Of a stretch of DNA of 43,606 nucleotides, positions 6,712 through 33,591 are shown piece after piece (position 1 is the first letter of the stretch; each line of letters begins with the position of its first letter). Made by a program: the position numbers and the translations under genes. Source of the stretch: Nanoarchaeota archaeon (lineage in GTDB: Archaea > EX4484-52 > LFW-46); NCBI GenBank assembly GCA_018897155.1, contig JAHILE010000059.1, positions 1 to 43,606 of the forward strand, read 5' to 3'. The notes beneath the pieces were generated by a model, which was given only the letters and a program-made list of their open reading frames with translations, did not search any database and was not told where the DNA came from.

Positions 6712-6745
6712 GTTTATATTGCCAACTGCTTGAGATTGCCGATAT
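6712..6745 (-). promoter_or_regulatory. Shared promoter module (site C), before DinD-like copy 1
   Basis: Read on the minus strand, ATATCGGCAA (6736-6745) is followed after exactly 15 bases by the TATA element AATATAAAC (6712-6720). Directly upstream is an overlapping extra half copy (TATCGGCG), giving a tandem. The predicted transcript start coincides with the ATG at 6690. The same motif and spacing occur at four other places in the window. Confidence 0.75.
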
Positions 6746-6798
6746 CGCCGATACAATACACGAATTATTTTATGAATTTTGCGAAATATTGTCAAAAA

Positions 6799-7008
6799 TC
6801 ATTTTTCATCGATCATTTCAAACAAAATCGTGTTAAAAACAGTATCGATATCAAACATTAGCCCGCCTTCAAGTCCCTTTTTCGCGATATCCAACTCATC
6901 TTCGGTCAGGAGCCGCCCGAGCTTTTCACGCGCCTCAATCTGCATTGTTTCCTTCGTGATGCAGAACAGCACATCGTTTTTATTAATTGTCTCAGTTATC
7001 ATCTCCAT
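6799..7008 (-). CDS. Small conserved-looking protein of unknown function (69 aa)
   Basis: No family recognised. The protein is acidic and mostly helical: after MEMITETINKNDVLFCIT comes a segment AREKLGRLLTEDELDIAKKG and then a DIDTVFNTILFEMIDEK tail. It has its own promoter (site A, 7045-7078) and a purine-rich AGGCGG about six bases before the ATG, which argues that it is real. It ends 54 bases upstream of the shared promoter motif of DinD-like copy 1. It may be a partner or regulator of that gene, on position alone. Confidence 0.6.
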   Translation of the reverse strand: MEMITETINKNDVLFCITKETMQIEAREKLGRLLTEDELDIAKKGLEGGLMFDIDTVFNTILFEMIDEK

Positions 7009-7044
7009 AAATGCCGCCTGTTTGTGTTGTGTGTGGCGCGCGGA

Positions 7045-7078
7045 GATTATAAATTTAACGGGTTGACGTTGCCGATAT
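7045..7078 (-). promoter_or_regulatory. Shared promoter module (site A), before the 69-residue gene
   Basis: On the minus strand ATATCGGCAA (7069-7078), then 15 bases, then TATA element TTTATAATC (7045-7053). The segment 7034-7080 matches 8884-8930 at 43 of 47 positions, so the whole promoter is duplicated on either side of the ImmA/DUF4411 pair. Confidence 0.75.
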
Positions 7079-7097
7079 GAATATCAGTTTTAAAAAT

Positions 7098-7595
7098 TTA
7101 GAACTTCCAGCCTTCAGTTCTGAATAATTCTACGATGTCTATAGATTCAATGGATTTTTGATTACAGACATACGGTATTCTTATTTTGTTTCCCCTGAGT
7201 TTTTCTTCAGTTACCACAACTCTTTTGATTTTAACAAGAGTTTGTTGAGTTTGTGAAGATAAATCGATTGCAAGGGCAATCACCCATGGATCTGCGGAAT
7301 GTTTAGCATTAACATCAATTAGTGCAGGATATTCTTTTAAGAGTTCTTGCACTATTTGGATTTGTCTAGCAGTAGGCGCTTTAAATAACTTTTTTTGCTT
7401 TTTGACCCATTTGGCTAGTGCATCATCATAGTTTTGTATTTCGTTTAGAACTTCTTTCGGTGCGATAAGACAGTCATTTTGAATTAATTGACTAATATTC
7501 TTCCAAACACTTACATAAACGTCCATTGCGTTATGCTTGTTCAATTCTATGAGAGAAGAACTATCTATAATGTAAACGTTATTAGTATTAGTCAT
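7098..7595 (-). CDS. DUF4411 PIN-like putative toxin
   Basis: A 165-residue PIN-fold protein. The acidic residues expected of a PIN nuclease are visible: D in YIIDSSSLIEL, E in APKEVLNEI and D in HSADPWVIALA, followed by a VVVTEE strand. The ending IPYVCNQKSIESIDIVELFR is characteristic of the DUF4411 family. PIN toxins cleave RNA. The ATG overlaps the stop of the upstream XRE-ImmA gene by four bases, so the two are translationally coupled, as in toxin-antitoxin operons. Assigning this gene as toxin and the HTH protein as antitoxin follows the usual reading of this gene pair; the activity is not shown by sequence. Confidence 0.85.
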   Translation of the reverse strand: MTNTNNVYIIDSSSLIELNKHNAMDVYVSVWKNISQLIQNDCLIAPKEVLNEIQNYDDALAKWVKKQKKLFKAPTARQIQIVQELLKEYPALIDVNAKHSADPWVIALAIDLSSQTQQTLVKIKRVVVTEEKLRGNKIRIPYVCNQKSIESIDIVELFRTEGWKF

Positions 7596-8752
7596 TTTTT
7601 CGCCTTTGAAAGTACCTTGTCAAAACTCTTTGATTTTATTGATAAATAATTTAATGCATCGGTATAGGTTATGTGCGATTTGTCATAATTATTAGCGACT
7701 AGAGAAACGAACTTATTTCCAACCTCAGAAAGGCATCTTACTTCAGAGGGCACTCCTCCACCAGTTCCTTTTTCAGGTTCTTTTTTGGGTTTGATTTCTT
7801 CTTTCTTGAACCTTGCTAGAATAGCATCATAATCTGTTCTTTCAATATATTTTAACTTAAGCATATTTAGAAGAAGCATCGCCTTACTGACTTTGTATTT
7901 ATTAGATAGATATTTGAGCGTTTCTTTTTGAGTGAGATTAGATTTATATGTTTCAAAAGCGGTTTTTGCCAAATCTTTAGGTAGTAAGAAAGACGCTGCA
8001 AATTCATTGCACCATTTTTCGACATTGTCTTTGTAGGAATAAGTTGCATCAGGCAAATCTATGACTGACTCCCCGAGCAAAATATGTGCGAACTCATGCA
8101 TCAAAGAGAATATCCTCGCTTCAATATTGTCCTTAGTGTTTACTACAATCACATTCGGAGATTCGTCCACAAATACGAATCCTCTTGCATCTTCAACAGG
8201 CATTGAAAATTGAAATACGAAAATATTCAAATCTTCAAATACATCCCGTAAATAGTGAAATAACTCGTAAGGCGTTTTGAATTTTCTTTGTTTTTCTTCG
8301 CTTAGATTAAAACGCTTCCTAAAGTTAAGGGCGATCTTCTCAGGATCTTCAGAAACATTTATTTTCGGCAATTTTGATTTTGTTTCATATTTGATATTTA
8401 TTGATAGCTCTTTGCTCAAATCTTGCAATCTTCGTGCCTTTCTCATAACGAGAATGGTTTTTTTATCAAATTTGTCGACTTTATCAGGAAGCATTCGATA
8501 ATCCTTCGGCTTTGGTTTTTCAGCAATTGGTTCGGATAATAAAAATGCTGCCAATGGCCGTTTGAAAATGGCTGAAAGTTCTTCCAATTGCCTTAACGTT
8601 GGTTTTTTCTCTCCGGATTCAAATTTTTCAATATTTTGTAGATTTGTTTTAAGCCGTTTAGCTAACTCCTCCCGATTCCACCCTGAACTCCCAATTAGCC
8701 ATTTCAGAACAGCGGGCTCAACGTTCACAGCAATTGGCTCTTTGCGCGGCAT
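7592..8752 (-). CDS. XRE-family regulator fused to ImmA/IrrE metallopeptidase
   Basis: A 386-residue protein. Residues about 20-70 form a Cro/C1-type helix-turn-helix (WNREELAKRLKTNLQNIEKF, then SGEKKPTLRQLEELSAIF). In the middle lies an ImmA/IrrE peptidase with the HEFAH zinc site in FSLMHEFAHILLGES and the CNEFAASFLLP helix that supplies the third ligand. Proteins of this architecture act as antitoxins or as repressor-cleaving proteases. It is the first gene of an operon with the DUF4411 protein. A GGTG Shine-Dalgarno sequence sits 8 bases before the ATG. The upstream DNA holds the shared promoter module, a 14-codon ORF and two direct repeats that may be its own binding sites. Confidence 0.9.
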   Translation of the reverse strand: MPRKEPIAVNVEPAVLKWLIGSSGWNREELAKRLKTNLQNIEKFESGEKKPTLRQLEELSAIFKRPLAAFLLSEPIAEKPKPKDYRMLPDKVDKFDKKTILVMRKARRLQDLSKELSINIKYETKSKLPKINVSEDPEKIALNFRKRFNLSEEKQRKFKTPYELFHYLRDVFEDLNIFVFQFSMPVEDARGFVFVDESPNVIVVNTKDNIEARIFSLMHEFAHILLGESVIDLPDATYSYKDNVEKWCNEFAASFLLPKDLAKTAFETYKSNLTQKETLKYLSNKYKVSKAMLLLNMLKLKYIERTDYDAILARFKKEEIKPKKEPEKGTGGGVPSEVRCLSEVGNKFVSLVANNYDKSHITYTDALNYLSIKSKSFDKVLSKAKK

Positions 8753-8764
8753 TTAAATCACACC

Positions 8765-8806
8765 CTACGAATATTACCACTCTTAATAGGTTTTCTATGA
8801 ATATTA
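8765..8806 (+). promoter_or_regulatory. Direct repeat pair CTAYGAATATTA, candidate operator
   Basis: CTACGAATATTA at 8765-8776 and CTATGAATATTA at 8795-8806 lie 30 bp apart, about three helical turns, so both face the same side of the DNA. They occupy the leader between the promoter (8895-8928) and the ATG of the XRE-ImmA gene. Toxin-antitoxin operons are commonly autoregulated by the HTH protein, which makes these the likeliest sites. This is inferred from symmetry and position. Confidence 0.5.
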
Positions 8807-8815
8807 ACGTTTAGA

Positions 8816-8860
8816 TTATCCTCTATCCATTAATGCAGGAAACGGCGTTGATTTTTCCAT
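8816..8860 (-). CDS. Leader mini-ORF or gene remnant (14 codons)
   Basis: A minus-strand ORF begins at ATG 8860 and encodes MEKSTPFPALMDRG. A GAGG Shine-Dalgarno sequence precedes it by about 8 bases, and its ATG lies 35 bases from the TATA element of site B, close to the 37-base distance seen for the 69-residue gene and the restriction gene. It is therefore well placed to be translated first on the ImmA/DUF4411 transcript. It may be a regulatory leader peptide or the remnant of a lost gene. Confidence 0.4.
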   Translation of the reverse strand: MEKSTPFPALMDRG

Positions 8861-8894
8861 AAGACGTCCTCATTTATGAAAAATGGTGCGCGGA

Positions 8895-8928
8895 GATTAT
8901 ATATTTAACGGGTTGGGGTTGCCGATAT
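8895..8928 (-). promoter_or_regulatory. Shared promoter module (site B), before the XRE-ImmA operon
   Basis: On the minus strand ATATCGGCAA (8919-8928), 15 bases, then TATA element TATATAATC (8895-8903). Nearly identical to site A over 47 bases. It would drive the mini-ORF and the XRE-ImmA/DUF4411 operon with a leader of about 120 bases before the ImmA start. Confidence 0.7.
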
Positions 8929-8953
8929 GACTGTGTTTGTAAAACGTTATTAT

Positions 8954-10252
8954 CTACGCATATATTCTACAGGTTCCATCCCTAAAAAGATAAGTGCCTA
9001 ATGGACAGCCGCTAATGCACCTGTTTTTATAACAAATAGATGTACCCTCCCCACAATAACTATTTGGAGAACCGCAAGGTTGATGACAATAGCCATCGGA
9101 GCCAAGTATATATCCTGATGTTTGACATCGGGAATCAGTTCCAACTATTGTTTGAGACTCACAATAAAACGCATCGCATGCACTATAACATCGGTTGTCA
9201 GTTCCCAATATTTCTGTTCTATCGCAATAGTTTACGCAATATCCTTTTTGAGTAAGGTATGCATCCCCTTTACAGTAAACCACGGAATCAATATTTCTCA
9301 AGGAACTGATCTTTATAGCTATGCTTTTCTGAGAAGAAGTTCCTATATTTATCCAAGTATTTATCCCCACAAGATTGCCATCTTTATCAAAAAGCCCGCC
9401 GCCACTACTGCCAAAATAAGTATAAACGTCAGATTCTATTGAATTAAATGCAAACCCATCACTCATAAGCAAATCTTTTAATGCATTAATTTTTCCTTCA
9501 GCTACTAAAAATTCTACAACTCGCTCAGCATAAGAAGGATAACCTATTGCAGTAACCGAATCCCCTACATTTAAATCATCATTCACAGTTACGCTTTGAT
9601 AATTTTCGGCATTAGTCGTATCTACCCCCAGTATTGCAATATCTAAATCATGAGGAGAAAAAGAAATTTTAGAAACCGGGTATATTTGGCCATCTTGAGT
9701 TCTAACGCTTGTTTTTTCAGTTAATCTTGAATAGCATTTCATATCATTGAATCCACAATCCAAAACGTGCCTATTTGTATATATAAATAATTTTGAATCG
9801 GTGTTTGAAAAAATAACTCCTGAACCACTACCGCCATTCTCAAAATAACTGCCATCTTCATTTTTCCCAGTTACTTCGTATTTTACCCAAACAATACTTT
9901 TCTTTACATCTTCAATATTTTTTGTATTTATGCAACTCGGCGCACCGTTTGAAGGACAATTAAATCTTTGATTGTTAGAACATGAAGTATAACACTGACC
10001 ATTACACCAAGAACTTCCTATTTCTTCACATTGCTGCTGTGGAGTTTTTTGAATAGCGGGTTGTATATATTCCGATATTCCTGAAACAATATTTTGAGAA
10101 TTTGTTGGTTCAGTTTCCTGCTGTGATGATTTATTTTGATCTGAAAATATTGAGGATCCAAAAGACCATCCAAAAACAATTACCGAAAGAATTATGAACG
10201 TCATTAAAAAAGTTGTCACAGAGCTATTTTCTACTTTTGTGTGCTTTTTCAT
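8954..10252 (-). CDS. Membrane-anchored trypsin-like serine protease with cysteine-rich tail
   Basis: A 432-residue protein. A single hydrophobic helix (about residues 14-34) after a short basic start anchors it with the bulk outside. A linker rich in S, T and Q and a small cysteine motif (CEEIGSSWCNGQCYTSC) precede a chymotrypsin-fold domain with the full triad: H in TNRHVLDCG, D in SPHDLDIAILG and S in YFGSSGGGLFD. The last about 110 residues hold many cysteines in short GTDxRC/GxDGYC units, probably disulfide-bonded knots. It is therefore an HtrA/trypsin-like surface protease without a PDZ domain. The frame extends upstream, but ATG 10252 precedes the signal anchor and lies about 30 bases from a TTTTATAAG element. 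It is the first gene after topoisomerase VI-A and probably has its own promoter. Confidence 0.88.
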   Translation of the reverse strand: MKKHTKVENSSVTTFLMTFIILSVIVFGWSFGSSIFSDQNKSSQQETEPTNSQNIVSGISEYIQPAIQKTPQQQCEEIGSSWCNGQCYTSCSNNQRFNCPSNGAPSCINTKNIEDVKKSIVWVKYEVTGKNEDGSYFENGGSGSGVIFSNTDSKLFIYTNRHVLDCGFNDMKCYSRLTEKTSVRTQDGQIYPVSKISFSPHDLDIAILGVDTTNAENYQSVTVNDDLNVGDSVTAIGYPSYAERVVEFLVAEGKINALKDLLMSDGFAFNSIESDVYTYFGSSGGGLFDKDGNLVGINTWINIGTSSQKSIAIKISSLRNIDSVVYCKGDAYLTQKGYCVNYCDRTEILGTDNRCYSACDAFYCESQTIVGTDSRCQTSGYILGSDGYCHQPCGSPNSYCGEGTSICYKNRCISGCPLGTYLFRDGTCRIYA

Positions 10253-10310
10253 ACAAGAACCCTTTGAATATTTAGTTTGAGTTCTTATAAAAGTAAGTTC
10301 AGACGTGCTC

Positions 10311-11420: not shown

Positions 11421-11460
11421 TTTTAATCATTCCCCACAATCATTGGATTAAAATCCATTC

Positions 11461-11529
11461 GCAAGTTTTGCTTGCTCTTGGCTTTTGAGCTTTGCTCAAA
11501 AAGCTTGAAAATTCCATCGAATTTTCAAG
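11461..11529. repeat. Array of three stem-loops between topoisomerase VI genes
   Basis: Three hairpins follow one another: GCAAG/CTTGC (11461-11475), CTTTTGAGC with GCTCAAAAAG (11482-11503, one bulged A) and a perfect 11-bp stem with a CATC loop (11504-11529). They fill the gap between top6B and top6A. The pattern resembles the array at 15812-15881. They may set the relative expression of the two subunits or act as processing sites. Confidence 0.7.
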
Positions 11530-11545
11530 ATAATAATCACCTAAT

Positions 11546-13204: not shown

Positions 13205-13303
13205 AATGTATCATTTCCCCCTCAAACAATAATATTTACTTCAGTTATAGAAACTTTAAATATATGGTCGAAGACATATATTTATAGCCTGTCTTCTCCC
13301 ATC

Positions 13304-13330
13304 TATTTCGAGAGCTATGCTCTTGAAATA
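13304..13330. repeat. Stem-loop upstream of topoisomerase VI-B
   Basis: Twelve-base arms (13304-13315 and 13319-13330) pair with one G-T wobble around a TAT loop. The stretch 13205-13453 otherwise contains the AT-rich promoter of top6B and no convincing gene. The stem-loop may be the 3' end signal of the KH gene transcript, which is also on the minus strand. Confidence 0.5.
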
Positions 13331-14461: not shown

Positions 14462-14479
14462 TTCTGATAATGTGATATT

Positions 14480-15931: not shown

Positions 15932-16372
15932 CTATCCTTTTTTTAACAACTGTGTATTTTGCCGCATTGCCTTAAAATTCTGGATGGCACACAACGTATA
16001 CGGCTCAACAGGCAATCTTTCAAATTCGTCAAGCGAAACCCAGCCGAATTCCTGTCCTTCTGAATTTAGCGTTACATCGCGTGAATCTGTTTTGCATGCA
16101 TAATCCATAAACACAAAATGCCTCTTTTTCCAGAATGCTGGATCGAATATAAATTCCTGGATGCCGATAAATTCGATGTCGAATATATCAAGACCGGTTT
16201 CTTCCTTTATTTCACGCTTCAGGGCATTAACCGCGCTCTCGCCAAGTTCTATATGCCCGCCCGGAATAACGTAGTTTCCGCCCCATTTGTGGGATTTCAT
16301 CAAAAACAGCTTGCCGATAGTATTGAAAATAAGCGCGCCTACGATCGGCTCCGGAAACTGCTGCTCAGCCAT
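15932..16372 (-). CDS. Nudix hydrolase
   Basis: A 146-residue protein with an intact Nudix box: GHIELGESAVNALKREIKEE followed by TGL, with all metal-binding glutamates. Such enzymes hydrolyse a nucleoside diphosphate linked to another group. The substrate is not readable from sequence, but coupling to a thymidylate-synthase-like gene suggests a nucleotide. Its ATG overlaps the stop codon of the MtrA/TS gene by one base, so the two proteins are made from one message. Confidence 0.92.
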   Translation of the reverse strand: MAEQQFPEPIVGALIFNTIGKLFLMKSHKWGGNYVIPGGHIELGESAVNALKREIKEETGLDIFDIEFIGIQEFIFDPAFWKKRHFVFMDYACKTDSRDVTLNSEGQEFGWVSLDEFERLPVEPYTLCAIQNFKAMRQNTQLLKKG

Positions 16373-18156
16373 TATCCACTCCTCCTGCTGTTTAATTTAT
16401 CAATAATCTTTTTGTCAATAGCATAATCAACAATATGGAGCGCGCTTGCAAACTGGGTGTATTGCCCGATTTCGACTTTCTTTCCTGTTTTTTTTGTCGC
16501 ATACCAAGCTATGAACTCGGATAGCGCCAGGCCTCCTGCAACATTACTTGGGAACGCCATAACATCATGCGCCCTCATTGCAAAAAGCGGAAACAAAAAC
16601 CATCCTTCTTTTACTTCGGAAAAGCGCCTTTCATCAGATTCGCTTGAGTTTGACGAAAGAAAAGTTTTCATCTTTCGCCCATCGTTCTCAACAGTGCCAT
16701 ACCGGATATAACGCGCGTTTGGCTGATAATAGCAAAAACAGGGATTGTGCATGTCGTAAGGCGAGTCTTTTGCAAGGTCAATCTGCGGAACCTGAAGAGT
16801 CACATAAAGCCTGTTCGAGTTGCCTATGCCATCAGCAACTACGGTTGCGCATCCTTTTGCAAGCCGATAAAACGAGTTGAAAGTCTTTGCCTGAACCGCA
16901 GACAAACTGTCATAAAAACCAAGAACATCTTCAAACGCCGGAACTTTTTCTGCGAACTTTTTCTGCATGACGTCAGTAAGCTCCTTTATGCACTGAAGCT
17001 CATACTTGTCCTTGCATGACTCAAAACCATAAGCGGTAAGCCGCGTCCCATAAGAATATTCTATGTTTTCAATAAGCTTTGGCACGGTTTTCCCGGTTTT
17101 AGGATCGTACTTAACATCAGCAATCGGAAACAGATACACCCATCGCGAGTATTTTTCAAGATAATCGCGCGCACCTTCATCGTTTTCTATCCAGGATTGC
17201 GGGCGGTAATCTTTTGGGATGCGCCCATTCTCAACATCATTTAATGTTATCGAAACATTCGCGCAGTCAAGCGCCATTCTTGTGCTTTCCTGTTTCCCCC
17301 AGCTGCCGAACTGCATTATGTGGCCCTGAATGTTTGAAAAAGCATCGGAAACAGTCATGGCATTTATAGAAGTTCCGGAAAACGATCCGTAGCTGTCAAA
17401 AATTGCGCCCATCTTGAAAAGCGAGAAATCATGCAGCAAGGGCTCTTTTGCTGCGGCGCCTTTGTCATAGATATGGTATTTCCTGCCCTTGACACTCATG
17501 AAAAATGCATTTTCGCATTCCTGCAGGCATATCCGTATCACAAATCCTATGACTTCGATGTCTGAACATTTCAGGAGGTCTATCACCTCAATCTGACTGC
17601 GGAAGCGCTCGATAACTTCACCAGGGAGGTTCTTCAGATACGGAAATGTCGGGCAGATTGTGTTTTTTACGCGGCGATCATCGTCAATTCCGTGAAGGAC
17701 AAGCGATTTTATAATGTCTCCTGCCATATGGCCCGAATCATTTCCTGCAAGGATTATCCAGCGGATATTAGGGTTGTAGACCGTATTTGCAATAACCAGT
17801 TCTACTCCCCGCGGGGTCATACACGGGCCTGAAATTCCTGCACCCATGCCGACTGCATGCGATTGTATTGTGTTGTTCTGTGATGGCACTATCACCGCAA
17901 CCGGATTCTGCGCGTCTGCAACCTCGTAAGTGCCTGAATTCGGCGGGAATTTTTTGAGCATTTCGCGCGGAACCTGAAAATAAGTGATTTTTGTGGGCGT
18001 TCTTTCAAAAAACAGCCATTCATTCAGCGATTTTGAATAAATCTTGAATTTATTTGGAAGCTCTTTCATATTGACGCCGGGTTTGAGCCATTCCGGGGGC
18101 TCCAGATGCACATACTCGCGCGATGAGAAATCATCAATGTCTTCCTGGCGCTCCAT
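16372..18156 (-). CDS. Fusion of MtrA-like and thymidylate-synthase-like domains
   Basis: A 594-residue protein. Residues about 75-200 resemble MtrA, the corrinoid subunit of the methanogen methyltransferase: QSHAVGMGAGISGPCMTPRG, VIANTVYNPNIRWIILAGND, SGHMAGDIIKSLVLHGID, and an ERFRSQIEVIDL segment. The C-terminal half resembles the thymidylate synthase fold: HNPCFCYYQPN (the PC dipeptide of the catalytic cysteine, near residue 472), MRAHDVMAFPSNVAGGLALS (matching the RSxD-PFN stretch) and QYTQFASALHIVDYAI. It could methylate or hydroxymethylate a pyrimidine, with the MtrA-like part binding a folate- or pterin-like carrier. This is inference. No Mtr partner genes are nearby, so a role in methanogenesis is unlikely. 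Confidence 0.75.
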   Translation of the reverse strand: MERQEDIDDFSSREYVHLEPPEWLKPGVNMKELPNKFKIYSKSLNEWLFFERTPTKITYFQVPREMLKKFPPNSGTYEVADAQNPVAVIVPSQNNTIQSHAVGMGAGISGPCMTPRGVELVIANTVYNPNIRWIILAGNDSGHMAGDIIKSLVLHGIDDDRRVKNTICPTFPYLKNLPGEVIERFRSQIEVIDLLKCSDIEVIGFVIRICLQECENAFFMSVKGRKYHIYDKGAAAKEPLLHDFSLFKMGAIFDSYGSFSGTSINAMTVSDAFSNIQGHIMQFGSWGKQESTRMALDCANVSITLNDVENGRIPKDYRPQSWIENDEGARDYLEKYSRWVYLFPIADVKYDPKTGKTVPKLIENIEYSYGTRLTAYGFESCKDKYELQCIKELTDVMQKKFAEKVPAFEDVLGFYDSLSAVQAKTFNSFYRLAKGCATVVADGIGNSNRLYVTLQVPQIDLAKDSPYDMHNPCFCYYQPNARYIRYGTVENDGRKMKTFLSSNSSESDERRFSEVKEGWFLFPLFAMRAHDVMAFPSNVAGGLALSEFIAWYATKKTGKKVEIGQYTQFASALHIVDYAIDKKIIDKLNSRRSG

Positions 18157-19732: not shown

Positions 19733-20632
19733 CTATTGCTTCAACTTCTTTTCAAGCTTCTTTGCAGAATTTAATTCAATAAAGTTTTCATTAGAAACTA
19801 TTTTAATTCCTAGGCTTTTTTCCGCATCATTCAAGGCTCTTCCTGCAACTGAACCGCCTTCGTTTGCAATAATTTGGTTCTGAATAAATCCTCTCGCGTC
19901 TTTTTTCCGCGTTGCCTCTGTTGTAAGCCGCTCGCCAAGCATTGAAAATATGAGTTCGAGGTCGTTCATATGATCGCGTAAATTTTCATTCTCCAAGCCT
20001 TTGGCTTTCTTGTATTCGCTTGGCGTAAGCCCAAAAGTAGCTTTTGAAATTTCTGCGGTTAGAATAGCGTATTCCCGGTCTGCTTTAACTCCGCGTTTTC
20101 CCCATTCATTTGTAAGTTCGTCTCTTATGGCGATTCCACGCACTCTTTTTTCTATCCAGTCATCAGAATATCCTTTTGCCGCGTATATTTCGCGCATACG
20201 CTTCATTGCGATTTCAGGATTTTCTATTTCCTGCACGCGCTCGTAGCCGACTTTTGCGAGCCATTGCTTGAATGGTTCGGCTCTTAAAGAAGGAATTGAC
20301 TGAATGATTCTGAACGCACCTTGCGTATTTACGCAATCCGTTTCTCTTAATTTGCCATCCTCCGCCAACAATTTCAACTGTACACAAATTGTGTACAGTT
20401 CAACTCCGTGTTCTGATTCTCTTGATTTAAGCATATTCCAATAGTTTCTCGGATTTGCGCTGTCCGTAAGGGCTTGAATAATATCCACAACCGAGAAAAA
20501 CCACTCGTTATCGTGCCACACCCGTCTGATTGCCTTTCCCTGAAACACCACCAAAGCATTTTCAGGTGCAGAATGTCCTGCCATAGCAACTGAAAAGCTG
20601 AGAGCTCGAGCGAACAGATCATGCGCGTCCAT
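19733..20632 (-). CDS. Bro-N / DinD-like protein, copy 2
   Basis: A 299-residue paralogue of copy 1, with the same Bro-N start (VVFQGKAIRRVWHDNEWFFS) and DinD-like C-terminal half ([54 protein letters not shown]). Residues MDAHDLFARALSFSVAMAGH at the start are almost the same as in copy 1. The ATG lies 22 bases from its TATA element, so it should be leaderless. Long stretches of DNA are identical between copies 1 and 2, while the segment after the Bro-N core (about residues 75-95) differs, as if one part evolves faster. It lies downstream of a methyltransferase gene but has its own promoter. Confidence 0.85.
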   Translation of the reverse strand: MDAHDLFARALSFSVAMAGHSAPENALVVFQGKAIRRVWHDNEWFFSVVDIIQALTDSANPRNYWNMLKSRESEHGVELYTICVQLKLLAEDGKLRETDCVNTQGAFRIIQSIPSLRAEPFKQWLAKVGYERVQEIENPEIAMKRMREIYAAKGYSDDWIEKRVRGIAIRDELTNEWGKRGVKADREYAILTAEISKATFGLTPSEYKKAKGLENENLRDHMNDLELIFSMLGERLTTEATRKKDARGFIQNQIIANEGGSVAGRALNDAEKSLGIKIVSNENFIELNSAKKLEKKLKQ

Positions 20633-20653: not shown

Positions 20654-20687
20654 GTTTATATTGCTTGGCGCTGGAGGTTGCCGATAT
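20654..20687 (-). promoter_or_regulatory. Shared promoter module (site D), before DinD-like copy 2
   Basis: On the minus strand ATATCGGCAA (20678-20687), 15 bases, then TATA element AATATAAAC (20654-20662). It fits in the 63-base gap between the methyltransferase stop and the ATG at 20632. The spacer sequence differs from that of site C, but the motif, the TATA and the 15-base spacing are kept. Confidence 0.75.
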
Positions 20688-22533: not shown

Positions 22534-24954
22534 TCACCCAGCCAAAACCTTCGAAACGCTCCCCTCTTTCACAACCTTGAAAACCCGGTCGCTGAACGCC
22601 TCAAGCTCGCGCTCATGCGAAACAAGGATTATCTGCTTGCATGCGAGTTCAGCAAAAACATCGCGCAAGTGAGTCAATTGCTCCTTGCTGAAACCGTCAG
22701 TTGGCTCATCAAGTATTATCAGGCCCGATGAACTCATGGAGCTGCAGACTCGCTTGACAACGGTATTTAGCGCGAGCCGGTAAGCTAGCGCAACCGAAGT
22801 CTTCTCCCCGCCAGAAAGCGCGCGTATATCCTGCTCATAACCGTTCTGCACAACTAACGGCGTGAATGCGTCATTTATCGAAACGCTCAAATCAGTATCA
22901 ACCATCAATATGCCGAACCATTTCTGGAAAAGCGAATTGAACTCCTCGTTTATGCTGCGAAGAACATGCTGCTCAATTGTTGCAAGCGCACCCGAGAAAT
23001 ATTCGTCAAGCCATGTGCGAATTTCGCAAAGATTGTCTTTTTCCTTTTTCTCGATTCCTTTTTTTGCAAGTCTCTCATCCACTGCCTTGAGGTCTGCTTC
23101 AAGCACACGCATTTCTGCTCCGGCTGAGCTAATTGCGCGAAGGATATTGCTGCGGCCGTCTTCCAGCAAGTTTGTTTCTTTTTCAAGTGCCGCTATATCC
23201 GACACTATTTTTTTCGAACTTTCAAACTCCTTTTGCTTTGATTCGTACTCGGCAGAAACCGTCAAGATATCCTCATTAAGTTCTGCTGCTTTTTTGCGCT
23301 CGGATTCTGCGCGCTTTGAAAGCGTTTCTGTTTCTCGCATCACCTCAAGAATCTTCATCTGATTCATTGCGTAACTTTTCAGCGATTCCGATATTTTTGA
23401 GAGCTCGGCTTCTTGGAAAGACAGCTTTTTCAGAATCTCGACATTTCTTGAATAGGTTTCCCTAAAGGAGATAATATCATCCAGCTTTGATTTTGCAGCT
23501 TCGAGATTTTTTGAAATCATGTCCCGCTCTTTTGACATGCTCTCAAATGCATCATTTGCACGCGAAAATTCAATCAAGAGCTCCCTTGTTTTCAACACAT
23601 CACATTCCTTTGCCGCAGTCTCGCTAAGCATAACTTCGAGCTTCTCAAGCTCTTCCTGAACATCCCGGGATTTTTTAAGAAAATGTGCGGGATCTATCTT
23701 ATGCTCGCATAATGGGCAAATCTCGTTTTGCAGGAGAGTTTCAAAAGTTTTTGCATCTTTTTTCATCACAGCAGTTTTTTCGCGCAATTCATCTGCCTGT
23801 TTTCTAAGCATCTGTATTTCACGCGAAATTATATCCCCTGTTTTCTCAGTCGGCTTTTTCTTCACTTCAAGCAACGCGATTTTTTTGTCGAGATTTTCAA
23901 TTTCCTGCTCTGCGCTTTTCAAAGAACTCTCGAAAAGCTGTGCCTCTGAAATCGATTTTTCAAGCCCCCCGATTGCCTTGGATATTTCGGTCATTTTATC
24001 GCGGACGCTTTTCAGCTCTACAGAGATACCAAAATCTGTTTTTTCTGTCGGCTTCCTGCACAATTCAAGCTCTGATATCCGGGCTTTTTTCCCGCGAATC
24101 TGCAATTCGGCTTCAGAAGATGATTTTTCAAGCTCTAACGCGCTCTTTTTTTTGTCAATAAGCGCATCCTTAAGCCGCGGCAGTTCGCCGGAAATCTTGT
24201 CAAACACAGCCTTTATCGCGCGAAATTCATCCATTTTTTTCCTCTGTTCCGACAATGAATCGACAAATAATTTTTCTTTTTTTGAAAACTCTTCAAGCTC
24301 AATGCTTTTTTTCTGGAACAATGCGGATTTTTCTGATTTTTCCGAATTCAACGCATCAAAATCCTCGAGGCTTCCTGCAAGAAAAGTCTCGCGCTCTTTT
24401 ATCTGCTTGGAAACAATTGCCGCGTTGTTTCGCGCGATGCGGTATTCTTCGATGCCGAATGCCCTGCGTAATGTTTCAAGTCGCGCATCCTCAGGCAATT
24501 CAAGTATCTCTTTCATTGATTCCTGCGGCGTAAAAACCGCATACCTATAGATGTATGAAGTCGCTTTGGGCGAGGGGTTCTCGTTGAATTTCAGCATTTT
24601 GAGGACCTCGCGCTTCATTTCCTCCGGGCTGAATTCGGTTTTTGAGCCGCCCGAAATTATGCTGCATTCTTTTTGAGACGCACCTGTTTTTTTTCGCTCA
24701 AGAGTTCTGCGAAACAAAAAATCTTTTCCTTCAATATCCATTGAAAGCGCTACAGAGCCCTCCTTTTCGCCGTTGCGCAAAAGAAATGTTGATTTCAGGT
24801 CGCCGAGGCCGAAAAGCGCGAATTCGATCGCATATAGTAGTGTAGACTTTCCGCTGCCTATGTCGCCCTCAAACAGAATGATGCCTTCGGGAAAATTTAT
24901 TTTCTCTTTTTTGTAGCTGCGTATATTTTCGAGCTCGAGGGATTTTATTATCAT
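22534..24954 (-). CDS. rad50: DNA double-strand break repair ATPase Rad50
   Basis: An 806-residue SMC-like ATPase. The N-terminal half has the Walker A loop EGDIGSGKSTLLYAIEFALFG-type sequence at residues 29-40. Long coiled coils on both sides surround the zinc hook CPLC near residue 413. The C-terminal half has the signature IRALSGGEKTSVALAYRL and Walker B GLIILDEPTDGF. With Mre11 it tethers and processes DNA ends. It is shorter in coiled coil than many Rad50 proteins. It starts 13 bases after the mre11 stop, the last gene of the nurA-herA-mre11-rad50 cluster. Confidence 0.96.
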   Translation of the reverse strand: MIIKSLELENIRSYKKEKINFPEGIILFEGDIGSGKSTLLYAIEFALFGLGDLKSTFLLRNGEKEGSVALSMDIEGKDFLFRRTLERKKTGASQKECSIISGGSKTEFSPEEMKREVLKMLKFNENPSPKATSYIYRYAVFTPQESMKEILELPEDARLETLRRAFGIEEYRIARNNAAIVSKQIKERETFLAGSLEDFDALNSEKSEKSALFQKKSIELEEFSKKEKLFVDSLSEQRKKMDEFRAIKAVFDKISGELPRLKDALIDKKKSALELEKSSSEAELQIRGKKARISELELCRKPTEKTDFGISVELKSVRDKMTEISKAIGGLEKSISEAQLFESSLKSAEQEIENLDKKIALLEVKKKPTEKTGDIISREIQMLRKQADELREKTAVMKKDAKTFETLLQNEICPLCEHKIDPAHFLKKSRDVQEELEKLEVMLSETAAKECDVLKTRELLIEFSRANDAFESMSKERDMISKNLEAAKSKLDDIISFRETYSRNVEILKKLSFQEAELSKISESLKSYAMNQMKILEVMRETETLSKRAESERKKAAELNEDILTVSAEYESKQKEFESSKKIVSDIAALEKETNLLEDGRSNILRAISSAGAEMRVLEADLKAVDERLAKKGIEKKEKDNLCEIRTWLDEYFSGALATIEQHVLRSINEEFNSLFQKWFGILMVDTDLSVSINDAFTPLVVQNGYEQDIRALSGGEKTSVALAYRLALNTVVKRVCSSMSSSGLIILDEPTDGFSKEQLTHLRDVFAELACKQIILVSHERELEAFSDRVFKVVKEGSVSKVLAG

Positions 24955-24967: not shown

Positions 24968-26290
24968 TTATTTTATTCCGATTGCCGCAAAAGCGCTGCG
25001 CTTTATTTTGCCCTCATAATCCGATTTTGACTCGCCTGCGTTTTCTGCGCGAAGCAAAACGAGAAGCGCTGCTGAGAGCTTCTTGCCATCATCTTTTGAC
25101 AGCGCAGGATTTTTCAGCGCCGCCTTTTTTTCAAAAAGGCCCAAAGACTCCTCGAAAACTTTTTCCTCTATTTCATGCTTGTCTTCGCCCTTAATTTTCA
25201 GCTGCTGGGTTTCGCGCGAAGAAAGCGAATTGTGGCTAAGATACGCCACATTTGCGCCGTTTTTCAAAATCATGCTTTTCAGCTCGCCGAAATTTATGTC
25301 TGATGGCTTTCCGCTTGAAAGCTCGCCATGGATTTTGAGAAGAACTACAGACGGCATCGCGCCTCCTGAAAAATCATTTTTCTCAATCATCTGCTTCAGT
25401 TCATCGCCTGCGGATTGAGATGTTTTTGCATCCGCACCATAAATCAGAGAAAAAATCCTGCAGACCTCAATTGGCTCAAAACGCGCGACTGCTTTTTTCG
25501 ACGAATCTATTTCAACAAAATAAAACCCGCCTTTTTCATTTGATGCATTTTGAGGATTTGCGGAGCCCTCAAAAGCTTGCCACGAAGTGGCATGATTTTC
25601 CAGATCGCGGTAATCGCCCCCGAAAAGCGCGCCCGTAAAGACGAATTTTCCGTATTCCGGAAAGTCGCGCTCCATGCGCTTGTGCACATGCCCCCCTGCG
25701 TAATAATTGAAATTTTTCGGGAAATTCGACAGCGGAATTCCGTCTGACATCGCAAGAAAATCAGGCTTCATCTCATTCAGCGTGCTGTGAAAAAGAAATA
25801 TTTTGACGTTGCCGTTTTCGCTGTTTTCAAGATGCTCACAGTCAAGATTCTCGTAGTATGATTTCTCTGCGCCGCGCTTTCTTGCAGACATTCCGGAAAA
25901 TTTGACGCCGGTTTTTTCATCTGTAAAAAAGTCAAGCCGTATTTTTCCGCCTTCAGTTATGTTTGCGCTAACGACTTTTTTTATAAGCCCTGCGCTGCCA
26001 AGAACATCAATAATCGAGGTTTCTGTTGCGCTGTAGTCGTGCGAGCCGTAGACAACATAAATCGGAATTCCTGCGTCTTTTAGCTGTTTCATTTTTCGCA
26101 CCGCCCGGTCAACAACAGCCATGTCGGGAAGCGCGATTTCAAACAAATCGCCTGCAATAAGTATGAAATCCGATTTCAATTCAATTGCTCGGTCAATCGC
26201 TTTCTCAAACGCTAAGACGTTTAATTCGCGCAGTGTCGGGTCCCTAAATGCTCCCAAATGAACGTCTGCGATGTGCGCGAATTTTACCAT
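24968..26290 (-). CDS. mre11: DNA double-strand break repair nuclease Mre11
   Basis: A 440-residue calcineurin-like nuclease. Metal-binding motifs appear in order: HIADVHLGAF (D9, H11), ILIAGDLFEIA, VVYGSHDYSATE, FLFHSTLNE and YYAGGHVHKRM. Motif III reads GSHD where most Mre11 proteins have GNHD, so the usual metal-bridging asparagine is a serine. The C-terminal about 150 residues should form the capping and Rad50-binding regions. It acts as exo- and endonuclease at DNA ends with Rad50, then hands over to HerA-NurA. Confidence 0.95.
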   Translation of the reverse strand: MVKFAHIADVHLGAFRDPTLRELNVLAFEKAIDRAIELKSDFILIAGDLFEIALPDMAVVDRAVRKMKQLKDAGIPIYVVYGSHDYSATETSIIDVLGSAGLIKKVVSANITEGGKIRLDFFTDEKTGVKFSGMSARKRGAEKSYYENLDCEHLENSENGNVKIFLFHSTLNEMKPDFLAMSDGIPLSNFPKNFNYYAGGHVHKRMERDFPEYGKFVFTGALFGGDYRDLENHATSWQAFEGSANPQNASNEKGGFYFVEIDSSKKAVARFEPIEVCRIFSLIYGADAKTSQSAGDELKQMIEKNDFSGGAMPSVVLLKIHGELSSGKPSDINFGELKSMILKNGANVAYLSHNSLSSRETQQLKIKGEDKHEIEEKVFEESLGLFEKKAALKNPALSKDDGKKLSAALLVLLRAENAGESKSDYEGKIKRSAFAAIGIK

Positions 26291-26930: not shown

Positions 26931-26977
26931 GCATATGTCACCTATCTCTGCAATAAATGAGTGCTAAAGCGCCATGA

Positions 26978-27568: not shown

Positions 27569-27608
27569 AAAATCACGAATTATTACATCAATTATCTAAT
27601 AAACCTAT

Positions 27609-29171
27609 TCACCCAATAAAAACCGTTTTCTCCTCTTTCTTTTTCTCTTTCACTTCCTTTTCATAATCCTCGAATCTTGGAATCGTTATCGGAATCGCGA
27701 ATTTTGTGAAAACGCTTGAGACTATCGCTTCTCCTGTGTCAAGGCTTGCGATAGAACGCGAGTCCGTGCTTAAGTCCTGCGCAGCGCTTTCTATTATCGC
27801 ATTGCGCTCTGCCAAAAGCTCGTTTCCAAGAATTATTTTTGTGTTCATGTTTGTCAGGACCTCGCGCGGGATTATGCTTGAAAGCTGCGTCACTGCAATC
27901 AAGCCCACTCGGAATTTTCTGCCCTCTCGCGCAATTGTCGAAAAAATATTTCCTCCGCTGTGCATTGCGTCGGCTCCCAAGACGCGCGGCGCTTCTTCAA
28001 GAATCACTGACACCAGGGGCTTTTGGTCAAGTACGCCTTCGTTTTTGTAGTACTTATACCTTTCGAAAACATCTGCTGCAATGATGCTTGCGATAAGTAT
28101 CTCAGTATTATTCGACATGCTTGATGTATCAAGGATGACTTTTTTTCCTTCCTCAAGCTGGCGAACGATATCTTTTATTGTGGATTCGCCGCCTGTTGCC
28201 GAGAATATGGAGCTTCTGCTTTTCATTGCGCCTGATTCGTCGGCATAGATATTCAGAACAACGCCGAGTTTTCGCTTGATGACGCCGAGCGTGCCTTCAT
28301 GTATTCCCTCATTCTGGAATGCTGCGACATCGGCGCGCATGACTTCGGATAGCCAGCTGACGCCGTATTTGCGGTGAAATATCTCAAGAGCATCCCTTTG
28401 CGCATCTGTAAATTCGAGAACTCCACGAAAATGCCACGGCTTTACAACCGAAAGATTAATTAGAAGGCTGCATGCGCCCCTAGCAGGCTTTGGAGAATAG
28501 GAAATGAGATTCTCGCGAGATTTTGGATGATCTTTTAAGCCAAATGAATTCCGTCCGTAATACTCATCATGCGGATCCAACACAAGCACGCCGGCGTACG
28601 TGCTTGAAAGCAGATTCCATAAAAGCACTTTCACAAGATTGCTTTTCCCGCGGCCGGTTGTTGCCGGAATCAGCATATGATGAGTCAACGCTTTTTCGCC
28701 GTCAAGAATAACTGGTATTTCAATGGTTTTATTCGCGCTTCTGACATAACCCAAAAATAAGGGCTTTTGCCACTCTTTTTTTAACATGAATTCGAGGTCT
28801 TTTGGCGCCACATTACGAATAGATGAGAAAAAAACAGGAAGAGCCTTTGGAATCCGCGCCACCCCGTTATCTACAGTAATCAGCGCTTTTGTGCTTGCAA
28901 GAACATAATTGCGCAGGTTATTCTCAAGAAATCCTGCGCTTTCGTGCGCAAGACCTTCAAGATTCAGTCCGCTTGCCATCTCAATTGTTGATGCCGGAAT
29001 CTGGCTGCCATACTTTAAGTCATAGACCTGCAGAATCGTAAGTGAATTATCGCCATTCTCTGCAACCAGAAGGTCGCCGAGGCCTATTTTTTTGCCGCTC
29101 TTTTCCCGGACAAAAATTTCGCCATGCTGTCCGCTGATGATTTGGCCGACGATGTCAATTTCATTTAACAT
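27609..29171 (-). CDS. herA: DNA end-resection translocase HerA
   Basis: About 520 residues. An N-terminal HAS-barrel ([18 protein letters not shown], then [11 protein letters not shown]) precedes a FtsK/HerA-type RecA fold: Walker [20 protein letters not shown], Walker [27 protein letters not shown], and the arginine-finger area near [17 protein letters not shown]. HerA forms a hexameric DNA pump that works with the nuclease NurA to resect ends. ATG 29171 was chosen because HAS-barrels begin close to this position; the frame remains open to 29249, into the DinD-like copy 3 gene. Confidence 0.95.
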
Positions 29172-29223
29172 AAAAATAACCACTTTTTTAATTACCTCGA
29201 ATTCGACGGGATTAAAATTCGGA

Positions 29224-30081
29224 TCATTCTGAAATTCCACTATGATCATCTTTGATTTGTTTTCTCTTATCTTTCTCAGGCTCAGATAAATAATTTTCTC
29301 CCGACAATATTGGCCTGCCTAATTCCCGTTCTGTCTCTTTTCTTGCATTGCCGGCCACTCGCCCGCCTCTTTGGGCAGCTGCTTCAACTTTTATAAAGCC
29401 TTGCGCATCTTCATTCTTTGTAATTTCCGTAGAAACTCTTTCACCCAGCATTGAAAATATAAGCTCCAAATCGTTCATATGATCACGCAGATTTTCTTTT
29501 TTTAATCCTTTGAATTTTTTGTATTCGCTTGGCGTCATGCCAAATGTTGCTTTTGAAATTTCTGCTGTAAGTATTGCAAAATCGGTCTCATCTACCACGC
29601 CTCTCTTTTTCCATTCGTCAGTAAGTTCATCTCGTATGGCGATGCCCCTAACTCTTTTTTCTATCCAATCCTTTGAATAGCCTTTGGCTTTGTAGATTTC
29701 TTTCATACGCTTTTGGGCTAGTTCAGGGTTTTCGATTTCCTGCACGCGCTCGTAGCCAACCTGCGCAAGCCAGAGCTTGAACGGCTCGGCCTTTGGAGAT
29801 GGAATTGACTGAATCAATCGAAAAGCATTTTGCGTATTAACGCAATCTGTCTCTCTTAGTTTTCCGTCTTCTGCCATCAATTTCAACTGTACGATTTTAT
29901 CGTACGGTTCAAATCCTTCGCTATTCAGCTTTATTTTTAAGTCCGACCAATACCTTTTCGGTACCGTGCTGTCTGTCAAAACTTCAACAATATCCACAAC
30001 AGAGAAAAACCATATTTCGTTATGCCATATTCTCCGGATTTTTTTGTCTTGAAAAACCGCAAGCGAATTTTCTGGATTCAT
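29224..30081 (-). CDS. Bro-N / DinD-like protein, copy 3
   Basis: A 285-residue paralogue that is more diverged than copies 1 and 2 and lacks their roughly 20-residue N-terminal extension, starting at [20 protein letters not shown]. The DinD-like half is kept ([37 protein letters not shown]). Its ATG overlaps the stop of the type IIG restriction-modification gene by four bases (ATGA), so its expression is coupled to that gene. This operon is inserted between nurA and herA. A role as regulator or damage-response partner of the restriction enzyme is inferred from coupling. Confidence 0.88.
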
Positions 30082-33000
30082 TTCAAGCTCTCCTCAATAA
30101 CCTTCTTTTCCTCCTCAGTTATTCCGTACAGCTTATAGACTAGTTCATCAATCTCGAAGTCCACCTGCTTAATCTGCTGTTCCAGCTGTTCTTTTTCGTG
30201 ACCTGCAGCTTTCCCATCGTGATATTTTTTCTGGAGCGCGAGCATTTTATCAACAAGGGTTATCAGTTCCTTATTAGAGTCAGTTCTATTAGTTATTGGA
30301 AGTTCCTCTATCGCGCGATTATATATTTGCAGTTTATCTCCTAATTTGACCTTAAAATAATAGCTCATGAGTTTTGAGTTTAATAGGGCTAAAATAAATC
30401 GTAAATCATATTTTTTTGAAAGCTCAATTTCGTGTGGTTCAAACGTGAATTTGCTGGATAGTTGATTTTTAAGTAAACAACAGATTAAAGTATTCTCAAC
30501 GTAAAAGAATGCCGAATCAATAGTTGCGGATAATCCGCCTTTTCCTAAAATTCGTTTCATTATTATCTTCGGGTTTTCAAATAATTCAGGGAACTTTGCG
30601 CTACAGTGTCTTTTTGGCTGATAATCCAGATATTTTCCACTCCAATAAATCGCATATCGCCCTATCTCTTTTGCCTCAATATATTTTTTGCATAGGTCAC
30701 CATCATTAGATGTTCGTATGAACTCATCCTTTGTCTTACCACTGTTTCTTTCATACACTTCAACTCCTTTGCTTATGCACATGATTTTTTTAAATGAAAA
30801 AGAATTGCTTTCAATCTTGTCAATTATTGGTTTGCTTACCTGCGTTATCTCTAATCTGTACATATAGTCAGGATTTTTAAAGAATTGGTCGGTGTCTATT
30901 TTTTCCAGTCTTCTAATGGCATTATTAACTATTAACGATTTAAATGTCACTCCATTCATTTTTCCTTTTCTGCAAATCAGTATGGTGCTTTTGACCTCTG
31001 CGGCTTCAAAAATCTTTACTTCTGATAAATCAACTATTTCCGAAATATGACAGCTATCCAAAATTATTTTTCTCATTTTTGTTGCATAGGGTTGATTTAA
31101 AAATGGGTATGGAATGATAAGACCGAAATAACAATATTCTTTTAATAATTTAATAGATTTTTCTATAAAAAATAAATATATATCGAACGTCCTAAATGCG
31201 GATTTATATGTTTTAGAGAAAAAATCTCTATCTTTTTTAGGAAGATTCCTGCTTCTTATATATGGCGGATTTCCGATAATGATATCAAATCCCCCTGCAT
31301 CGATTATGTCGCCAAAGTCAATGTTCCAGTGAAATTGGTTTGCGAGCTTTGGAGGCGCGCCGTTTCCGTTTCCGGCTCCGTTCCCATTTGCATTTTTTCC
31401 GTTTTTGCCGCTTTTCTTTGAATTCGACATGCTGAAAATATAATTTTGAAAGGCAGGGCTCACAACAGAATATATTGATTTTCTTATTGCCGCGATAATT
31501 TCTCGGAGGCGCACCGCGCCTTCGCCTTCTTCTTTTGCATAAAGAGACTGTAAACCTGCATACGCTTTTTTGAGATTATTTACTGCATTTCCGCTCTTTT
31601 TTGACAAAAGCTCTTCGCTTTCGGACAGGATATTGAATCGCTCGACATCGCTTTCGTTTCTCGAATATGCGAATTTCAGAGTCTCAAAAACGCCTTTCAT
31701 GCGCTCGTCATACGGCGTAATCACGAGGTTTTGATTCAGCGGCTCGTCAACCCATCCTATAAGGCTGTTTCCGCCGATTATTTTATATTCTATATTTGGG
31801 AGGGTCTGAGTGTGCGCAAAATCCGGCAAGTCAATATTTTCTATCATACTCAGCCACAATCTGAGCTTTGCTATCTCGACAGCCGCTTCTTCAATATCTA
31901 CGCCGTACAAATTATTATTGATTACTTGCTTTTTGATTGCAAAATAGCTCACCTCTTTTTCGAGCCTCTCAAGCAGTTTTTTCTTTGTAAAAACAAGTTC
32001 TTTCATGGCAGATGTCAAAAAATGTCCGCTTCCGCATGCGGGATCTAATACTTTAAGTTTATCTATTTCATCACATATAGCCCTTATGATTTTCGGGTTT
32101 GTGGATTCAATGTCTTCGATAAAATCGTCAAGCGTATTGTAAGGAGCTATATTCGCATCGCTCCATCCGAATTGTTTTAAAATGGCTTTGACTTTTTCAA
32201 GAATAACCGGCTGTATGGTGTTTTTTGAAATGTATGCGGTTATTTCTTCCGGCGTATAATACGCCCCGATGTCTTTTCGCTTATTCTCTCCGGCATTGCC
32301 GGTCAGGTAATTTATTGTTTTTTCAAATACATTTCCCAGTATGTCCGGATTAAGCGCCTGCTCATCGCCGTTGAGCGTAAACGAATACTTTTCAAGCAGA
32401 TTTTTTATAATTTCCCTCAGAATATCATTTTCAACATCATATTCTTTTTCCCGGGAAACCGATTCGCGAAATAATCCGCCGTTAAGATATGGGATATTCC
32501 TGAAAAGCCCTATTGCCTGTACATTGGTTTTTCTCTTATTAGAAGCGGTATTGAAAACATCATAAAAAAGCACCTGAAGATATGCTTTATAAAATGTCGA
32601 CGGCAGTTTCAAAGCATCGTAATCTTTGAACAATTTGCCAAGGAGATTGTTTTCCACAAGCCCTTTATCCTCAAGGAATTTTACAAAAATCAGGCGGCTC
32701 ATCAGATTGACTGAAAAAAGCCGTTTCTCAGAGTCTAAAGAATCCTCTGCGGAAGATATTTCATTAAGAAGGCAATGAACTTGCCGATCGCTTCTTTTTT
32801 CTGCTCCGAAAACATACAGGATATAATCTTCGTAAAACTCCTTTGTGATTTTTTCCTTATGCATTTCAAGAAAGTTTATTTTTTCCTTTGCAATAAACAA
32901 GATAGTGTCTCTGCTAAAGCCGCAATAAAACTTTGGCGCAATGTCTTTAAGGCCTGCAATATGCTTTTGCCAAAAAAGCTCCTGAAAAAAGCCGCGCAAA

Positions 33001-33521
33001 TCGATATCTAGTAGCTTCTTTAACTTATATTCTTCGGAATCATACTTCAATAAGACCCATCGAAACCCGTTTGTTGCAAGACCGTAATCGGCTCTAAATG
33101 ACCTTTTTTCAAGCCAGCTTCCAACCTGCTCAATGCCGCTTCCTCGTGTTTTCAAATCTTTATTAAGCGGCTCCGCCTCAACCAATATTTTTTCGGCTCC
33201 AAAACGCAAAGTGTAATCCGCTTCTTTTCTATCTATGCCAGATTCTGAAGAAGTCCTGCGGTGCAAATCATCAATTGCAAATCCCAAAAACTTAAACAAA
33301 GGGCGTATTATGATTTCCTCAGTAAGATCTTCCGGCGCTTTATTTAGTTCCGTGTCCGCCCGCTCAAGCGTTTTATCGCCATTTATAAGCTGTCCGAGAA
33401 CAAGCTTATTATTAATTTGCCGAGAAAGAGAATCATAAATGTCTTTTAGGGCTTCGTAAAATTCAGTTTCTTTTCCGTCAGGAAACGCAGTTATTTCTTT
33501 TTTGAATTTTGTTTGCGGCAG
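30078..33521 (-). CDS. Type IIG restriction-modification enzyme (Eco57I-like)
   Basis: About 1147 residues from the proposed start. The N-terminal domain has a PD-(D/E)xK-like core (DYTLRFGAEKILVEAEPLNKD). The central adenine-methyltransferase has motif I LDPACGSGHFLTS (about nt 32020-32055) and motif IV IIIGNPPYIRSR (about nt 31255-31280), typical of N6-adenine methylation. The C-terminal about 350 residues resemble a TaqI-type target-recognition domain and end in a coiled coil. An unusual G/N-rich linker lies near nt 31340-31420. The conserved frame runs upstream of the first TTG (33299) for 74 codons (including NNKLVLGQLINGDKTLERAD) but has no ATG, GTG or TTG; the likeliest start is CTG at 33521, 6 bases after a GAGGG. 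Confidence 0.88.
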   Translation of the reverse strand: MPQTKFKKEITAFPDGKETEFYEALKDIYDSLSRQINNKLVLGQLINGDKTLERADTELNKAPEDLTEEIIIRPLFKFLGFAIDDLHRRTSSESGIDRKEADYTLRFGAEKILVEAEPLNKDLKTRGSGIEQVGSWLEKRSFRADYGLATNGFRWVLLKYDSEEYKLKKLLDIDLRGFFQELFWQKHIAGLKDIAPKFYCGFSRDTILFIAKEKINFLEMHKEKITKEFYEDYILYVFGAEKRSDRQVHCLLNEISSAEDSLDSEKRLFSVNLMSRLIFVKFLEDKGLVENNLLGKLFKDYDALKLPSTFYKAYLQVLFYDVFNTASNKRKTNVQAIGLFRNIPYLNGGLFRESVSREKEYDVENDILREIIKNLLEKYSFTLNGDEQALNPDILGNVFEKTINYLTGNAGENKRKDIGAYYTPEEITAYISKNTIQPVILEKVKAILKQFGWSDANIAPYNTLDDFIEDIESTNPKIIRAICDEIDKLKVLDPACGSGHFLTSAMKELVFTKKKLLERLEKEVSYFAIKKQVINNNLYGVDIEEAAVEIAKLRLWLSMIENIDLPDFAHTQTLPNIEYKIIGGNSLIGWVDEPLNQNLVITPYDERMKGVFETLKFAYSRNESDVERFNILSESEELLSKKSGNAVNNLKKAYAGLQSLYAKEEGEGAVRLREIIAAIRKSIYSVVSPAFQNYIFSMSNSKKSGKNGKNANGNGAGNGNGAPPKLANQFHWNIDFGDIIDAGGFDIIIGNPPYIRSRNLPKKDRDFFSKTYKSAFRTFDIYLFFIEKSIKLLKEYCYFGLIIPYPFLNQPYATKMRKIILDSCHISEIVDLSEVKIFEAAEVKSTILICRKGKMNGVTFKSLIVNNAIRRLEKIDTDQFFKNPDYMYRLEITQVSKPIIDKIESNSFSFKKIMCISKGVEVYERNSGKTKDEFIRTSNDGDLCKKYIEAKEIGRYAIYWSGKYLDYQPKRHCSAKFPELFENPKIIMKRILGKGGLSATIDSAFFYVENTLICCLLKNQLSSKFTFEPHEIELSKKYDLRFILALLNSKLMSYYFKVKLGDKLQIYNRAIEELPITNRTDSNKELITLVDKMLALQKKYHDGKAAGHEKEQLEQQIKQVDFEIDELVYKLYGITEEEKKVIEESLK

Positions 33522-33557
33522 ATAAATCCCTCAAGTAGTATTTTACTATTCGTTTTG

Positions 33558-33591
33558 GCTCATATAAGTATTCCATTAGCATTGCCGATAA
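33558..33591 (-). promoter_or_regulatory. Shared promoter module (site E), before the restriction-modification operon
   Basis: On the minus strand TTATCGGCAA (33582-33591), 15 bases, then TATA element TATATGAGC (33558-33566). The predicted transcript start is near 33537, giving a leader of about 16 bases with a GAGGG before the CTG at 33521. It overlaps the last bases between nurA and the operon, so the inserted genes have their own promoter. Confidence 0.65.

Follow-up and report, generated by a model that had tools for sequence, protein, structure and literature searches.

The window analysed here is the whole 43,606-nucleotide stretch of contig JAHILE010000059.1, which belongs to a DPANN archaeon, and it carries a short element, CTANCGGCA, that lies at a fixed distance upstream of the TATA box at several promoters and recurs across the host genome. 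Our analysis suggests, with a probability of about 0.7, that this element is the binding site of one conserved putative transcription regulator, which in this DPANN phylum would control an SOS-like regulon for DNA repair and replication stress. To our knowledge, archaea are generally described as being without an SOS response, and literature searches with the letters of the site and for an SOS response in DPANN returned no paper. For the one well-studied archaeal damage regulon, that of Sulfolobus, no increased expression of repair genes was reported (PMC2246294). The genome-wide presence of the site at a fixed promoter distance points to an SOS-like programme in an archaeal group where none has been described.

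The distribution of the element was evaluated in the host's own genome (G000, 1.43 Mb) and in a sample of its phylum comprising 34 species genomes of one order, divided into seven families labelled f1 to f7. Relatives of its RPA carry the deposit names archaeon, DPANN group archaeon or Candidatus Aenigmatarchaeota; the genomes are metagenome assemblies with a completeness of 57-96%, and the gene sets were read from site-centred stretches. The core word TATCGGCAA occurs 59 times in the host genome, as compared with 14 copies of the reversed control word. When a TATA element was required at 14-16 bases (TATCGGCAA-N14-16-TWTAWA), a scan of the kind proposed in the first-pass annotation of this DNA returned 20 matches versus 0 for the reversed pattern in the host genome, and 8 versus 1 in the sister genome. 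The pattern CTAYCGGCA-N13-18-TTWAWA gave 61 matches over the 34 phylum genomes, counting separately a few overlapping matches to one site, and 3 in the controls, an enrichment over the controls at each of the three levels; a Poisson figure for this last pattern was computed from rounded counts of 62 and 4. All 59 copies in the host genome were then placed: about 32 are promoter-like, being followed by a suitably spaced TATA-like element and a gene, while the remaining ones are mostly intragenic and have no TATA at that distance. Rfam analysis of the sites without clear open reading frames (ORFs) returned only tRNAs located elsewhere in those loci.

An ungapped profile built from 113 sites of all families showed the consensus TTCTATCGGCAA, weakly conserved spacer bases and a TATA box about 17 bases past the site. 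All counted sites share one orientation, facing the gene, and the start codon is repeatedly found at position +53 or +54, counted from the first T of TATCGGCAA. Most messages are therefore probably leaderless, with the site centred about 50 bp upstream of the start and the element CTANCGGCA at about -54 to -46. The profile is not palindromic, and the site overlaps neither the TFB recognition element (BRE) nor the TATA box nor the start. Its distance from the TATA box excludes the BRE, as had been noted at first reading, and would suit an activator bound upstream more than a repressor.

Conservation was followed at the promoter of the gene for the single-stranded DNA-binding protein RPA. A blind count found TANCGGCA upstream of RPA in 19 of 27 genomes, while shuffled sequences gave a mean of 0.17 and a maximum of 2. 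Outside the genus, identity between the RPA proteins is only about 28-45%, yet their promoters keep the site. Between families the third base of the site varies, with spacing and orientation unchanged: RPA promoters carry CTATCGGCAA, TTATCGGCAC or CTATCGGCAT in f7, CTATCGGCA or the pair TATCGGCAT/TATCGGCAG in f3 and CTACCGGCAC, often in tandem, in f4. In f2, CTAACGGCAA occurs at one RPA promoter and TTACGGCAA or TTAACGGCAA ahead of the gene for a protein of about 85 residues, here called A3. This protein was found in 28 of the 34 genomes and is under the site in f1, f3 and f7 (L060:452-718, L103:122-388, L267:342-599); it returned neither a Pfam nor a PDB relative, and our guess from its residues is a small beta-rich fold of the single-stranded DNA-binding type. 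The idea of one shared regulator acting through an upstream site is strongly supported by spacing and orientation kept across families while the spacers change.

The genes behind the sites were then identified by Pfam. The host genome set includes MCM, XPD, Hef (an ERCC4 helicase-nuclease), RPA, UvrA, RadC, an RPA-related OB protein and two Xer-type recombinases, one recognised by Pfam and the other by sequence likeness, in addition to a PD-(D/E)XK nuclease, N4/N6 methyltransferases, HSDR-type genes, KilA-N, XRE-IrrE and several Bro-N proteins. RadA, the archaeal RecA/Rad51, directly follows RPA in f1, f3, f4 and f7, and also in f2 as judged by sequence likeness. An unselected reading in the other families returned UvrA in five genomes, RadC in four and Hef in four, together with MCM, NreA, an anaerobic (NrdD-type) ribonucleotide reductase, CDC48, DUF763, Bro-N and the A3 protein. 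Taking an assumed background of 8%, repair and replication genes account for 10 of 32 genes in the host genome (binomial P = 1.3e-4) and 22 of 45 in the other families (binomial P = 5e-13). None of the annotated genes at the promoter-like sites of the host genome is ribosomal, translational or metabolic. The proposal that all downstream genes are accessory is correct within the window and not genome-wide, where RPA, UvrA, MCM, XPD, Hef and RadC carry the site; the first reading had seen the accessory fringe of a regulon centred on core repair.

A possible mechanism can be outlined on this basis. The predicted binding site is CTATCGGCA(A), with the family variants CTACCGGCAC in f4 and TWACGGCAA in f2; it faces the gene and would end about 17 bases before the TATA core, some 50 bp upstream of the predicted transcript start. 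A protein bound there could touch TBP/TFB or RNA polymerase, which makes activation the likeliest mode. The core targets would be the RPA-RadA operon, UvrA, XPD, Hef, MCM, RadC, NreA, ribonucleotide reductase and a small PCNA-box-like protein, while Bro-N/DinD genes, restriction-modification genes and an XRE-ImmA/DUF4411 pair would have been recruited to the same control. The accessory Bro-N and restriction-modification genes appear to have been added to the core regulon; in E. coli, dinD is under LexA control. The gene list, which comprises a recombinase, a single-stranded DNA-binding protein, excision repair, a fork helicase-nuclease, ribonucleotide reductase, a dinD-type gene and small proteins, is as expected for an SOS-type response. 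A more specific version, to which we would give slightly better than even odds, is that an SOS-type damage regulon older than the families exists in this DPANN phylum, that an archaeal activator acts at CTANCGGCA, and that mobile genes were captured by it. This regulon would span recombination, excision repair, fork repair and nucleotide supply, and the captured Bro-N/DinD and restriction-modification genes would let host defence be switched on along with repair. A conserved site linking RPA-RadA, UvrA, XPD, Hef, RadC, MCM and ribonucleotide reductase across families would represent a directly testable archaeal counterpart of the SOS response, linking DNA repair with the control of mobile defence genes. 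The site could also serve as bait for isolating the regulator, and it yields small proteins of unknown function as candidate damage effectors.

Several observations weigh against an SOS-like regulon. No regulator was found, and in families f5 and f6, which have both the RPA and the A3 gene, neither is preceded by a recognisable site. Some genes behind the site have no known repair link (a membrane protein, DUF6155 and a 79-residue protein), the 8% background share of repair genes is an assumed rather than a measured value, and induction by damage is inferred from gene content. Moreover, MCM, RPA and the anaerobic ribonucleotide reductase, which all carry the site, would also be expected in a replication or S-phase regulon comparable with eukaryotic E2F/MBF, in which RPA, MCM and ribonucleotide reductase are tied to DNA replication and the repair genes ride along. 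We consider this main rival unlikely, as UvrA, RadC, Hef, XPD and NreA function in repair, Bro-N and restriction-modification genes are hard to place in it, and no PCNA, primase, replicative polymerase or RFC gene occurs at the exact sites of the host genome, weaker site variants not having been enumerated.

Slightly less probable is an SOS-like regulon working by derepression, with the protein at the site acting as a repressor removed on damage, as LexA or DdrO. Derepression is common among bacterial damage regulons, and one of the genes carrying the site encodes an XRE-ImmA/IrrE protein of the DdrO/IrrE type; however, the site is no clear palindrome and stays clear of the BRE, TATA box and start, about 50 bp upstream, in one orientation and at a fixed spacing. 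The fixed distance to the TATA box would also agree with a constitutive upstream element strengthening some promoters without any signal, but the exact site is present at only about 32 promoters of a 1.43-Mb genome, genes for repair and mobile defence being over-represented at them in separate families, making this explanation very improbable. The least probable of all is the earlier suggestion that these genes are regulated by DinD-like Bro-N proteins bound at the site. The Bro-N domain binds DNA, and the site is present at most Bro-N genes of the host genome and of genome G001, whereas family f3 has the site at RPA, A3 and DUF763, with no Bro-N gene in three genomes at least 90% complete (96, 94 and 90%) that carry it at RPA, and the f6 genomes, with up to seven Bro-N genes, have no conserved site at RPA or A3. 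The DinD/Bro-N proteins are targets and not the regulator.

As for the putative regulator of the SOS-like regulon, the A3 protein was also considered and set aside, being present in f2, f5 and f6 as well; it is more probably a core protein that is itself a target. A ribbon-helix-helix-like protein of 52-53 residues lies behind the site in both f1 genomes (L139, L142), seemingly with a second promoter of its own. A small winged helix-turn-helix protein, seen once only, behind the site at C46:6126 (L126), is a possible regulator.

The proposed regulon was compared with known damage responses. It shares its gene logic with the LexA regulon, in which a recombinase, a single-stranded DNA-binding protein, uvrA, a dinD-type gene and small proteins are under one site: recA-, ssb- and uvrA-type content is represented here by the RPA-RadA operon and UvrA. 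In contrast, the repair genes are of archaeal type, and a directional CTATCGGCAA upstream of the TATA box is found instead of a LexA-type palindrome over the core promoter. The Deinococcus DdrO/IrrE (PprI) system combines an XRE protein with an IrrE-type peptidase, and DdrO binds the palindromic radiation/desiccation response motif (RDRM) box. The fused XRE-ImmA gene under one of the window sites partly resembles this pair, but the site is non-palindromic, and the gene, paired with DUF4411 within an accessory cluster, seems to be an accessory target. Among archaea, the DNA damage response element of the Sulfolobales is a non-palindromic ANTTTC at -44 to -39 (PMC5817253), bound by Orc1-2 (PMC9738581). 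The element of that system (Orc1-2, TFB3) is likewise short, non-palindromic and just upstream of the BRE/TATA at a fixed distance at many promoters; it differs from the present element, CTANCGGCA at about -54 to -46, in letters and position, and belongs to another phylum with another gene content. Mycobacterial PafBC and Caulobacter DriD are WYL-domain proteins reported to activate damage genes without the classical pathway (PMC6789036, PMC12340889); their damage regulons are of the activator type, like the one proposed here, but with bacterial promoters and regulators. In Halobacterium, RPA, radA1 and ribonucleotide reductase were induced by UV, and the consulted part of the study reports neither an SOS-like coordinated response nor an induction of excision repair (PMC1224876). 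RPA, radA and ribonucleotide reductase are in common with the present set, and no shared site is described in that part.

Within the window, all five WTATCGGCAA sites of the first-pass annotation were recovered, all on the minus strand, as are the genes behind them, and they are the only exact copies. Site A (ATATCGGCAA, 6736..6745), with a 15-base spacer and a TATA-like AATATAAA at 6713-6720, precedes DinD-like copy 1 (Bro-N, 295 residues, 5803..6690), and site D (ATATCGGCAA, 20678..20687), with a TATA-like AATATAAA at 20655-20662, precedes DinD-like copy 2 (Bro-N, 299 residues, 19733..20632); both start codons lie at +54 bases from the start of TATCGGCAA. Site B (ATATCGGCAA, 7069..7078; TATA-like TTTATAAT at 7046-7053) is followed by a 69-residue ORF without Pfam match (6799..7008). 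Downstream of site C (ATATCGGCAA, 8919..8928; TATA box TATATAAT at 8896-8903) are the fused XRE-ImmA/IrrE protein (HTH_3 + Peptidase_M78, 7592..8752) and the overlapping DUF4411 gene (7098..7595). Site E (TTATCGGCAA, 33582..33591; TATA-like TATATGAG at 33559-33566) precedes a type IIG restriction-methyltransferase of the Eco57I/MmeI kind (30078..33299), whose open frame reaches upstream to about 33530; translation of this gene probably begins at a non-standard codon close to the predicted transcript start.

Aligned in a single register, the TATA elements of sites A to E read AATATAAA, TTTATAAT, TATATAAT, AATATAAA and TATATGAG, and the claim of a TATA exactly 15 bases on applies to the sites at 8928 and 33591, the other three having no exact TATA at that distance. 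A duplicated promoter had been attributed to sites A and B; the duplicates are instead B and C (7078/8928), with 13 of 15 spacer bases alike, and A and D (6745/20687), with 75 of 78 downstream bases alike. Owing to these two pairs, the window holds about three independent sites rather than five. A 29-base pattern with up to three mismatches gave 17 matches in the window alone versus 10.3 expected, which is not significant; this loose pattern not being exceptional there, the case was moved to the genome level.

The type IIG operon was not found to end at DinD-like copy 3 (Bro-N, 29224..30081), which overlaps the type IIG gene, since close minus-strand genes go on with a HerA-like ATPase (DUF87, 27609..29249) overlapping copy 3, two ORFs of unknown function, a Mre11-like metallophosphoesterase (24968..26290) and a Rad50/SbcC-like ATPase (22534..24954). 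Judging from gene spacing, the last two genes probably belong to the operon. DinD-like copy 3 matched the PADLOC candidate defence family PDC-S13 (E 4e-120), and a candidate anti-phage gene would come in this way under repair-type control.

A few additional features were observed behind the sites. A protein of 45-55 residues with a C-terminal PCNA-box-like QxxLxx[YFW] motif is under the site in f1 and f7 (L040:1555-1719, L105:1327-1476, L246:2415-2573, L258:537-671), followed in f1 by an NrdR-like gene; the protein may be a damage-induced clamp-binding protein. DUF763, a family of unknown function, is under the site in two f3 genomes (L277, L278) and may be a repair gene. In four f7 genomes (L240, L244, L254, L260) the site is followed by a conserved 35-residue ORF, MKRNPESPLNFWFRAVSR(R/K)QRD..., that has a ribosome-binding site and varies mostly in third codon positions. 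The site promoter is followed by a conserved leader of about 100 bases in three copies in the host genome and one in the sister genome (L039, L058, L133, L162); an ORF of about 37 residues (AVDRKYYGIR) comes after the leader in three of the four, and Rfam returned no match. Just upstream of the site before RadC in the host genome (C28, L141:3945-3968) is a perfect 24-base palindrome, CATTTTGTTGACGTCAACAAAATG, perhaps a second operator. Finally, positions 16372-18156 of the window encode a 594-residue protein with an MtrA-like domain (tetrahydromethanopterin S-methyltransferase subunit A), here in a DPANN genome.

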